From the NCBI GenBank assembly GCA_016201865.1, contig JACQCA010000085.1, positions 1 to 42,182 on the forward strand: DNA of 42,182 nucleotides. Reading direction: 5' to 3'. Position 1 is the first letter of the stretch, and each line of letters starts with the position of its first letter. Source of the DNA: Nitrospirota bacterium. GTDB taxonomy: Bacteria > Nitrospirota > Nitrospiria > JACQBZ01. Shown here piece after piece: positions 3,035-40,455 of the stretch. The notes under the pieces were generated by a model, which saw nothing but the letters and a program-made list of their open reading frames with translations, searched no databases and was not told where the DNA came from. Both the position numbers and the translations under genes were made by a program.

Positions 3035-3065
3035 CTAAAACCCGCGGCAAACCCGAGGGAGCCAC

Positions 3066-3140
3066 CCAGCGAGCAAAGCGAGCGAGAGGGGGAGGCTCCA
3101 TCCGGCTTCGCCGGTGGAGGGGGCGACGTGAGCCCCTATA
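3066..3140 (-). repeat. Interspersed palindromic repeat, family A copy 1
   Basis: In minus orientation this reads TATAGGGGCTCACGTCGCCC, then a CTCCA-CCGGC hairpin with its mirrored half ending TGGAG, then CTCCCCCTCTCGCTCGC and a further CGCTCGC. Related copies are at 10060-10138, 37721-37919 and 40382-40455. This copy ends 3 bp from the 3' CCA of tRNA-Pro. The three hairpin-forming blocks resemble REP/BIME-type elements. Confidence 0.8.
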
Positions 3141-3143
3141 AAT

Positions 3144-3220
3144 TGGTCGGGGCGCGCGGATTTGAACCGCGGACATCCAGCTCCCGAAGCTGGCGCGCTA
3201 CCGGGCTGCGCTACGCCCCG
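3144..3220 (-). tRNA. tRNA-Pro (anticodon CGG)
   Basis: The acceptor stem CGGGGCG / CGCCCCG, the anticodon stem CCAGC / GCTGG with 7-nt loop TTCGGGA (anticodon CGG), the T-loop TTCAAAT and an encoded 3' CCA (plus TGG at 3144-3146) are all visible. The total length is 77 nt. The first 10 nt of the tRNA (3211-3220) are also the last 10 nt of the ald reading frame. The tRNA is most likely cut out of the ald transcript. Confidence 0.95.
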
Positions 3221-10059: not shown

Positions 10060-10138
10060 ATAGGGGCTTGCGTCGCCCCCTCCATCCGCCTAAGGCGGAA
10101 TGGAGCCTCCCCCTCTCGCTCGCTTCCGCTCGCTGGGG
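10060..10138 (+). repeat. Interspersed palindromic repeat, family A copy 2 (inside the gsp operon)
   Basis: The blocks are TAGGGGCTTGCGTCGCCCCC, then CTCCATCCGCC-TAA-GGCGG-A-ATGGAG (an 11-bp stem), then CCTCCCCCTCTCGCTCGC and a CGCTCGCTG end. This copy fills the 105-bp gap between gspN and gspL and should form strong RNA hairpins in the operon mRNA. Confidence 0.8.
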
Positions 10139-23133: not shown

Positions 23134-23288
23134 CAAATTTGTCCTCTAAAACCGGCGCATTGGAGACAGGGATTAAACCGACCGCCGCGCCGTGCGCACG
23201 AGGATGGGCGGAAATTTTTCTATTTTCCTGTTTCATCTAAGATAATCGCGGCGGGTTGGGTAAGGTTTTCTCATAGGCCTTCCTTCTC

Positions 23289-23316
23289 TTGATTTTACCC
23301 CTTCAGTGTGTAATAA
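23289..23316 (+). promoter_or_regulatory. Possible promoter of the VapB-like gene
   Basis: TTGATT (23289-23294), a 16-bp spacer and TAATAA (23311-23316) lie about 40 bp before the ATG at 23360. Confidence 0.45.
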
Positions 23317-23359
23317 TTGTTCAGAATATGCGCATTTATTTGAAGAGGGGTAGACGAAA

Positions 23360-23566
23360 ATGAGCGGCACGAAGATCGCGCGTAAAAATCTTATGGTGGA
23401 AAGCAAGAAGCTGCAGGCTCTGCGAAAGTTATTGGGATCATCCAGCGAATCGGAAGCCGTCCGCGAGGCGATTGATCGAACACTGGCCGGCGAAGAAATC
23501 ATCACTGCATTTGAGCGACTCCGAAAGCGCGGAACCTGGACGGACCGGTACGGGCGAACCGCTTGA
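23360..23566 (+). CDS. VapB-like antitoxin (partner toxin lost)
   Basis: This is a 68-aa protein with a GAGGGG Shine-Dalgarno. Residues ~1-45 (SGTKIARKNLMVESKKLQAL, then SSSESEAVREAIDRTL) look like a short DNA-binding antitoxin whose S-E-S-E-A-V-R-E-A block resembles VapB/ribbon-helix-helix proteins. The C-terminus (ITAFERLRKRGTWTDRYGRTA) would bind the toxin. The stop overlaps the ATG of a vapC remnant by one base (TGATG), the normal vapBC layout. With the toxin gone it is an orphan antitoxin and may still repress its promoter or neutralise related toxins. Confidence 0.7.
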   Translation: MSGTKIARKNLMVESKKLQALRKLLGSSSESEAVREAIDRTLAGEEIITAFERLRKRGTWTDRYGRTA

Positions 23567-23604
23567 TGAATCGCTATCTGGTTTTTGACACCTCGATTAT
23601 TTAA
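23566..23604 (+). pseudogene. VapC (PIN-domain) toxin remnant, 12 codons
   Basis: The frame reads MNRYLVFDTSII and then TAA. L-V-F-D-T-S is the first strand of a PIN domain, including the first catalytic Asp. Everything after it has been lost or replaced, and I cannot find the rest of the domain downstream. It starts in the classic vapBC overlap with the antitoxin gene. Confidence 0.6.
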
Positions 23605-23772
23605 TAACTCAAAACAGAAAGGACATGGCGCGGTGGCAAAAAATCCTAAAAGGCTCCGGCAAAAACCTCCTCCTCTATCCGATCCAGCAGTATTCCTTTT
23701 AGCAGCACGTTCAATGGATACCCTCGCTCTTACAGGCGGGATCTCCCGCTAAAAAATACGGCCCGACAGACC
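23605..23772. other. Gene-free segment between vapC remnant and repeat copy A
   Basis: I see no complete gene. A 26-codon frame begins MARWQKILKGSGKN at 23624, which vaguely resembles the first residues of some small toxins, but it stops early. A small hairpin GCGGGATCTCCCGC lies near 23737-23750. The segment is probably debris of earlier insertions. Together with repeat A it makes a 344-bp stretch without a gene. Confidence 0.4.
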
Positions 23773-23890
23773 TTATTGATCTTTTGGATACGCCCCTTTC
23801 ACAGCGGCCTTCCTCGGCATACGACCACATCATGACTGAATTACTACCATCGTGTTCGCAATCGCGAATGGCCGAACTCAAGCCCCGGCC
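23773..23890 (+). repeat. 118-bp direct repeat, copy A, upstream of the DUF4258/DUF2283 pair
   Basis: It begins TTATTGATCTTTT and ends CAAGCCCCGGCC. It aligns without net gaps to copy B (24462-24579), sharing long identical runs such as CTCGGCATACGACCACA and CTACCATCGTGTTCGCAATC. It contains the near-palindrome TTCGCAATCGCGAA. It ends 16 bp before the -35 box of the toxin promoter. Confidence 0.85.
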
Positions 23891-23906
23891 CCGCGTCTTG
23901 CATTGC

Positions 23907-23935
23907 TTGACTCCCCTGCCGCTATTCGGTATAGT
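23907..23935 (+). promoter_or_regulatory. Sigma-70 promoter of the DUF4258/DUF2283 pair
   Basis: TTGACT (23907-23912), an exact 17-bp spacer and TATAGT (23930-23935). The -10 ends 13 nt before the ATG, so the transcript should start about 6-8 nt before the start codon, leaving no room for a Shine-Dalgarno. Confidence 0.7.
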
Positions 23936-23948
23936 CCAAGTTGTTTAT

Positions 23949-24233
23949 ATGCAAATCCTCTTCTCAGATCATCTTCGACATCGTCTGGCCTTGCGGAAGA
24001 TCCCTAAGGATCTTCCTAAAAGAGTTTACATCCATGCAACGGAAAGATATTACGATGAAAAAACGCATCTTACCGTGGCTGTAAAGGGCGTGATTTTGTA
24101 TGGTAAAATGCGTGAAGTTATGGTAGCATATCGTGCAGAAGGAACCAACGTATGGTTAATCACCATACACCCTCTTAAAAAAGCCCAAAAAGATAACCGA
24201 GTAAGGTCGAAACGTTGGAGGAAACTGACGTGA
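23949..24233 (+). CDS. Putative DUF4258-like toxin
   Basis: This is a 94-aa basic protein starting MQILFSDHLRHRLALRKIPKD. The start is chosen because the promoter ends just before it; the frame is open further upstream only through repeat A. Central strands TVAVKGVILYGKMREVMVAYR and WLITIHPLKKAQKDNRV, with a Lys/Arg-rich tail, fit the small DUF4258/BrnT-like RNase-fold families. Its stop overlaps the next gene's GTG (GTGA, 4 nt). Paired with a DUF2283 protein, it is best read as the toxin of a type II-like module. Toxicity has not been shown, and the family call is by pattern only. Confidence 0.6.
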   Translation: MQILFSDHLRHRLALRKIPKDLPKRVYIHATERYYDEKTHLTVAVKGVILYGKMREVMVAYRAEGTNVWLITIHPLKKAQKDNRVRSKRWRKLT

Positions 24234-24439
24234 AACTGCCTAAGGCATTCTATGATAGTCGGGAAGACATTCTCTATCTCGGGAAACCGGGGAATGAAGA
24301 GGAGTACGTCGAGATCCAGCCCGGTGTGAATATTGAGTTGGATTCAAAGAAAAAGATTATCGGCATCGAGGTTCTTCAGGCATCAAAGGTTTTAAAGGAT
24401 GTGATCGCGCCCTTGGCGAAGAGAATCCAAGCAGCGTAG
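24230..24439 (+). CDS. DUF2283 protein, putative antitoxin
   Basis: The start GTG at 24230-24232 has TTGGAGGA seven nt upstream; a TTG at 24215 would sit on that Shine-Dalgarno. The 69-aa protein begins VKLPKAFYDSREDILYLG and continues EIQPGVNIELDSKKKIIGIEV and LQASKVLKD. The YD...D-x-LYL start and the G-I-E-(V/I)-L-x-A-S end are DUF2283 hallmarks. DUF2283 genes usually follow DUF4258 genes and are viewed as antitoxins. The acidic to neutral character against a basic partner fits that view. Confidence 0.7.
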   Translation: MKLPKAFYDSREDILYLGKPGNEEEYVEIQPGVNIELDSKKKIIGIEVLQASKVLKDVIAPLAKRIQAA

Positions 24440-24461
24440 TCGTCAGACTCCCATTTTCCTT

Positions 24462-24579
24462 TTATTGATCTTTTTGATACACCCCTTTCACACCGGCCTC
24501 CCTCGGCATACGACCACAGCCTATTTGAATGACTACCATCGTGTTCGCAATCGCGAATAGCAAAAATCAAGCCCCAGCC
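24462..24579 (+). repeat. 118-bp direct repeat, copy B, downstream of the DUF4258/DUF2283 pair
   Basis: It begins TTATTGATCTTTT and ends CAAGCCCCAGCC, 22 bp after the DUF2283 stop. It has the same length and order as copy A (23773-23890), with scattered substitutions, so the two genes and their promoter are bracketed exactly. Confidence 0.85.
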
Positions 24580-24642
24580 CTGTCCCACACCCGCCAACGG
24601 CGGTTTCTCAAATATCAATAAGGCATTTAACCCATGAATACT

Positions 24643-25542
24643 CTATTTATATTTGACACACCAATTCTCCTCGTCTCGATTATACACCCCAGCAAGTACA
24701 TCCACCGAATCAAATTCCACCCTTGATGCTCCGTAATACCAAAACCCAGCTTCTTTTAGTATCCCGTCAGGCTTGCCAAGTATCTCTCTGACATCTTTCC
24801 TCGTCATGCCTGTATTTAGACTGCAGGCAATTTTAGTGCTGTGCCTGACTCTTTCCTTGATTCTTTGTATGAGTTTCTCTATCTCGGCCTCTCGTTGGTC
24901 CATTCGCTCCTCAGCATCCTTTAATTGAGCTTTAAGAATTTGCACCGGAACAGATTTACCGGGATGGGAATCCCGAGATGAATCTCCATTTATTTGAGCC
25001 AATAACAATTCAACTTCCTTTTGTTTCTCTTCTACCCTCCTTGTATGCATTAATAGAGACTCCTCTAGTTGGTGTACTTCTTCAATGGTACTTTCCATTT
25101 CACGCTTTTTGTCCTTAAGTTCTGCCTGTATCTTCTTTAATGCTATTGTGTTCGACTCACCTTGTGTTTTAACATTCTCCTGAATTTTAAGGAGCCGGTC
25201 TATCGGAACTCGAAGGAGTCTATATACAGTTACAGTTCCATCATCATGCGGGTCTTCAAATGTCATCTGGGTCTCTATTATTAATCCTTTAGATTCAAGA
25301 TCCGTAACTTGTGCAAAATTCATCAATTCTACTTTTCCATTTTCAAATGCGATTTTTCGGGCCTTTTCCACTGTTTTCTCATTGGAAGCCACCCCAACAA
25401 CAAAGAGATCGGCTCCCTCAATATAGGATGATTTCTCCGTCCAAAAGGGTCTTTTATCATCCTTAGCGGTCACAAAGCTCAATGGGATAATAGAGAGCAG
25501 CAGAATGAGAAGCAGAGTTATCCTTATTTTCGATCGGACCAT
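24643..25542 (-). CDS. Exported LPP20-like coiled-coil protein with SmpA/OmlA-like end
   Basis: I start at the ATG at 25540-25542 (MVRSKIRITLLLILLLSII), which gives a clean signal peptide; the frame stays open 46 codons further without sense. The mature part has an LPP20-like block (~32-115; DLFVVGVASNEKTVEKARKI and ELMNFAQVTDLE), a long coiled coil (~125-245) and a C-terminal SmpA-like block (~255-299; MTRKDVREILGKPDGI, WYYGASRVEFDS). The DNA is clearly richer in A and T than the neighbours, with codons such as ATA, TTA and AAT common, which suggests recent transfer. It is divergent from ubiB. Function is unknown. Confidence 0.65.
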   Translation of the reverse strand: MVRSKIRITLLLILLLSIIPLSFVTAKDDKRPFWTEKSSYIEGADLFVVGVASNEKTVEKARKIAFENGKVELMNFAQVTDLESKGLIIETQMTFEDPHDDGTVTVYRLLRVPIDRLLKIQENVKTQGESNTIALKKIQAELKDKKREMESTIEEVHQLEESLLMHTRRVEEKQKEVELLLAQINGDSSRDSHPGKSVPVQILKAQLKDAEERMDQREAEIEKLIQRIKERVRHSTKIACSLNTGMTRKDVREILGKPDGILKEAGFWYYGASRVEFDSVDVLAGVYNRDEENWCVKYK

Positions 25543-25621
25543 GGTAAGCAAAAGTATAAACTTTTGAGAAAACCGGTCAAGATGGGGAAATGATAGAGAG
25601 ACGAACCAATCGCCCCCTTCG

Positions 25622-37706: not shown

Positions 37707-37720
37707 CCCCTGTCTATTTG

Positions 37721-37919
37721 TAGGGGCTCACGTCGCCCCCATTTTATCTGGGGGCCCGTGCGGTTCGCTACTGCGAATCCTCCGATGCCCCCAGGCCCCG
37801 CGCTCGGACGGGCAGAGCCCGATCCTCGCTTACTCAACCGGTGAAGCCGGATGGAGCCTCCCCCTCTCGCTCGCCGTGCTCGCTGAGTCGATCCCCTCGG
37901 GCGACGCGAGCCCCTATAA
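37721..37919. repeat. Family A repeat, copy 3: compound element with two opposed ends
   Basis: The left end TAGGGGCTCACGTCGCCCCC (37721-37740) is followed by ~90 bp of unrelated sequence. A partial copy in plus orientation comes next (GTGAAGCCGGATGGAGCC, CTCCCCCTCTCGCTCGCC), then an inverted end GGGCGACGCGAGCCCCTATA (37900-37919). The element fills the hppA-pth gap and its outer end supplies the TAG stop of pth (37914-37916). I see no gene in it. Confidence 0.75.
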
Positions 37920-40373: not shown

Positions 40374-40381
40374 GTCTATTG

Positions 40382-40455
40382 ATAGGGGCTCACGTCGCCC
40401 CCTCCATCCGCCTAAGGCGGAATGGAGCCTCCCCTTCTCGCTCCTTCGCTCGCTG
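40382..40455 (+). repeat. Interspersed palindromic repeat, family A copy 4
   Basis: ATAGGGGCTCACGTCGCCCC, then CTCCATCCGCC-TAA-GGCGG-A-ATGGAG and CTCCCCTTCTCGCTCC...CGCTCGCTGA. It is nearly identical in its first two blocks to copy 2. It lies 8 bp from the 5' end of tRNA-Gln, between it and ispE. Confidence 0.8.

Follow-up and report, generated by a model that had tools for sequence, protein, structure and literature searches.

The repeat pair and the genes between its copies

In the Nitrospirota sequence analyzed here (the window, i.e., the whole stretch of 42,182 nt) two overlapping genes of toxin-antitoxin appearance are bracketed by two direct repeats, which raises the question whether the repeats are the borders of a mobile or excisable cassette, as the initial annotation had suggested, or came to lie around the genes in another way. 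The features concerned are the following:

23773-23891, no strand assigned: repeat copy A, which probably lacks its right end
23907-23935, plus strand: promoter-like site of the gene pair (TTGACT-17-TATAGT, 10/12)
23949-24233, plus strand: DUF4258-like putative toxin, 94 aa (PF14076, 15.7 bits, below the cut-off of 25)
24230-24439, plus strand: DUF2283 putative antitoxin (PF10049, E=3.7e-11, 43.5 bits against a cut-off of 23)
24462-24580, no strand assigned: repeat copy B, extendable to a candidate MITE-like unit at 24459-24623 (~165 bp) whose terminal inverted repeats are imperfect

The repeats are 119 nt long each, align without gaps and share 104 of the 119 positions (87%), with a spacing of 689 bp and a longest common exact run of 27 nt. 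Among 50 shuffled versions of the window the best match reached 54/119, and the resemblance between A and B is, therefore, not due to chance. They had been described as two 118-bp repeats of equal length and matching order: the repeats themselves proved to be real, while their 13% divergence had been omitted, and the 15 differing positions suggest that the repeats are old. The described layout agreed with the coordinates, i.e., the repeats enclose one promoter-like site together with both genes, copy A lying 16 bp before the -35 box and copy B 22 bp beyond the last stop at 24439, albeit promoter-like sites in this region showed no excess over the region's own shuffles. Neither an evidently conserved reading frame in the repeat copies nor anything credible in an RNA-family search was found.

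Judged by its profile score, the second gene belongs to DUF2283 beyond doubt; its most likely start is the GTG at 24230, which overlaps the first gene (GTGA) and is preceded by GGAGG. The assignment of the first gene to DUF4258 is weakly indicated. A search of 147 genomes, of plasmids and of viral contigs found no relative of its product, and a single-sequence structure model (pLDDT 60, poor) gave no match in a fold search. DUF4258 is listed among the toxin families of the RelE/ParE superfamily, with its activity given there as unknown (PMC11980606). The protein from the window has the small size and the two-gene overlapping operon in common with these toxins and differs from them by the match below cut-off and by the DUF2283 partner. 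A profile search of the 2.5-Mb genome detected eight DUF2283 matches, and at other loci of this genome DUF2283 is also partnered by a DUF4258-type gene, with one DUF4258 match over the cut-off, while a literature search found no paper naming the two families as a pair. The pair may plausibly be a type II toxin-antitoxin module, most likely of the RelE/ParE superfamily (BECR-type), in which the first gene would encode the toxin and the second its neutralizing partner. Further DUF2283 genes were located close together on single contigs at loci L104 (C1:614-1484) and L105 (C42:43751-49488).

A lineage-specific block and its empty sites in relatives

The repeats and the gene pair are part of a larger block, which includes the following additional features:

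23136-25620, no strand assigned: lineage-specific block of 2.48 kb, flanked by a surface/DUF11-like gene and a ubiB-like gene
23360-23566, plus strand: vapB-like RHH antitoxin ORF, 68 aa (RHH_1, 16.7 bits, below the cut-off of 20.5)
23566-23604, plus strand: vapC-like stub of 12 codons, reading MNRYLVFDTSII up to its stop
24643-25545, minus strand: signal-peptide coiled-coil protein, weakly BamE-like at its end, probably starting near 25543

The composition of the block is foreign, with 45% GC vs 58% in the window. An intact vapB followed by a vapC cut to 12 codons had been proposed next to the gene pair: the stub is present, while the RHH_1 match of the vapB-like ORF stayed below the threshold. 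The stretch from the vapC stub to copy A (23605-23772) consisted of broken frames, two of which were compared with Pfam and gave no credible match.

All five relatives examined (G001-G005) lack the whole block, including the coiled-coil gene. The distance from the left motif TGTCATATTTCAAATGGTTTGTCAACA to the ubiB promoter GTTGACTCTC, 2,485 bp in the window, amounts in these genomes to 16 bp (G002), ~58 bp (G004), 101 bp (G005), 119 bp (G003) and 124 bp (G001). Both flanking genes sit together in G003 and G005; in G004 the left gene is kept along with the promoter region of ubiB, ubiB itself being absent, and G001 and G002 kept ubiB and still carry the left motif next to a different left neighbor. 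The flanking genes are conserved in the family, and the short spacing in the relatives identifies the whole block as a lineage-specific gain or, less simply, as a result of several losses. This bears out the earlier suggestion of a site that gains and loses modules and of which empty versions exist. The expected empty site with one repeat was not among them: no repeat copy was retained at any of the five sites, and the reading of the repeats as a duplicated insertion site is disfavored for that reason.

Distribution of the repeat

A search of this genome and its relatives, as had been proposed, did reveal further copies, bringing the total, fragments included, to four in two genomes, with several of them truncated. 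Contig C30 of the same genome contains a 52-nt repeat fragment ~440 bp from another DUF4258/DUF2283 pair, on one side of that pair only and in the opposite relative orientation. G002 has a single 90-nt copy between recQ and rimP, which supplies the recQ stop region with its first bases, at a junction that the other relatives lack; this copy flanks no toxin-antitoxin genes. Six of the eight DUF2283 loci had no repeat copy in the surrounding stretch examined. No strong match was obtained with a sequence model in the rest of the 147 genomes, no substantial match with the core pattern in 396 genomes of the phylum, and none in plasmid and viral collections; the sole match of a GTDB scan with the core pattern was the relative's contig, from a Nitrospiria bacterium of the Hainich set. 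Within the scope of these searches the repeat is a rare one, restricted to this Nitrospiria-like genome family. In other families the repeat model gave weak matches (E 0.003-0.1), which appear to be due to chance, and a pattern match in G371 falls inside a kinase-like gene.

The window also contains a different dispersed repeat of ~62-70 bp (GGGGCTCACGTCGCCCCC.. / GCGAGAGGGGGAGGCTCC) at 3057-3152, 10060-10125, 37707-37895 and 40378-40443. It occurs there in both orientations, is also found in G002 (L004 2210-2400) and outnumbers the 119-nt repeat here.

Inverted ends and the nature of the repeat

Extended by 43 bp to 24623, copy B acquires imperfect terminal inverted repeats of ~26 nt, CCTTATTGAT...ATCAATAAGG (ends of the candidate unit, CCTTATTGATNTTT; right end at 24581-24623). 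The start of copy B has nearly the same letters as the left end of copy A, CCTTATTGAT, and the inverse of the latter, ATCAATAAGG, closes the sequence immediately beyond copy B. In a shuffle test, which was chosen after the match had been seen, the pair formed by the left end of A and the right end was equaled in 0 of 2000 shuffles and the B pair in 2 of 2000, with 0 of 500 in a separate run. Copy B is surrounded by CATTTT / CATTTA, a weak CATTT target duplication, while none is clear around A. The end motif was absent from the other loci examined (467 kb in all), and a transposase with the same ends was not found. Given the imperfect terminal inverted repeats of B, the best guess for the repeat is a MITE-like element, with A as a truncated second copy. 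It resembles MITEs and other short non-autonomous repeats in being short, non-coding, dispersed and intergenic and in having inverted ends, and differs from them by its very few copies, imperfect ends, weak target duplication and the absence of an identified parent transposase.

The same ends permit a wider reading, in which A's left end and the right end beyond B, matching as inverted repeats, would delimit a composite or MITE-like unit of 853 bp (23771-24623) carrying the gene pair. This is rather unlikely: positions 23771/24623 are not flanked by a target duplication, the presence of the internal repeat finds no explanation, a second example of the unit was not found and the stretch missing from the relatives is far longer than 853 bp. 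Its extended version, a non-autonomous transposon with CCTTATTGAT ends and the pair between internal direct repeats that spreads such pairs among Nitrospiria genomes, appears more doubtful still.

That the repeats derive, on the minus strand, from 5' leaders of REP-associated (Y1) transposase (RAYT) genes, since decayed, is suggested by their reverse complement, which reads GGGGCTTGA...ATGCCGAGGAAGGCC in a layout resembling the RAYT leaders in these genomes. The similarity to 20 such leaders, however, barely exceeded that of shuffles, 2% of which reached the score of A and 13% that of B, the repeats have no coding remnant and none of the three Y1 loci in this genome carries the repeat, making this origin improbable.

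Recombination between A and B, moving the 689 bp as an excisable cassette, would account for the bracketing of exactly one operon and for the repeat fragment near the second pair on C30, and the 27-nt exact run could permit rare RecA-dependent deletion. It is nevertheless very improbable, and active excision of the gene pair finds no support: the copies have diverged, no recombinase is adjacent to them, the empty sites lack 2.48 kb and have no single repeat, and, outside this site, the C30 fragment is one-sided and oppositely placed, the G002 copy is free of toxin-antitoxin genes and most DUF2283 loci are free of the repeat.

Finally, the repeats can hardly be considered as attC sites of a decayed integron cassette, despite the cassette-like layout of direct repeats separated by a toxin-antitoxin pair and an integron-integrase-like (IntI-like) C-terminal fragment at the edge of contig C97 (G000:C97:3-158, locus L096; 99/265 bits, below the cut-off, N-terminal part missing), since the GTTRRRY/RYYYAAC cores are absent, the repeats fold no better than shuffles (z-scores -1.04 to 0.67) and no intact integrase over the cut-off was found; the initial annotation had correctly set attC aside, as judged from the core sites and the single-strand fold.

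Origin and significance of the locus

The explanation preferred here, and considered probable, is that an intergenic hot spot received insertions step by step, with decay thereafter; the gene pair would be a type II module and the two repeats MITE-like elements. In this lineage, the hot spot upstream of the ubiB-like gene would have taken up a number of small modules, namely a vapBC pair, decayed since then, the DUF4258-like/DUF2283 pair and the gene for the coiled-coil exported protein, together with two copies of the repeat, a short and rare MITE-like sequence that is non-coding and has inverted ends. Copy B (~165 bp) would be the fuller one and A would lack ~44 bp at its right end, so that the bracketing may result from two insertions or an old duplication rather than from an active cassette boundary. 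Against this explanation stands the fact that none of the four repeat copies has both ends proven.

As it stands, the locus is a modest annotation. With its several empty sites it is a clean illustration of a gene-gain hot spot, and it adds an example of the rarely described DUF4258-like/DUF2283 pairing, while the unit with inverted ends, if shown to move, would represent a route for the spread of toxin-antitoxin pairs.
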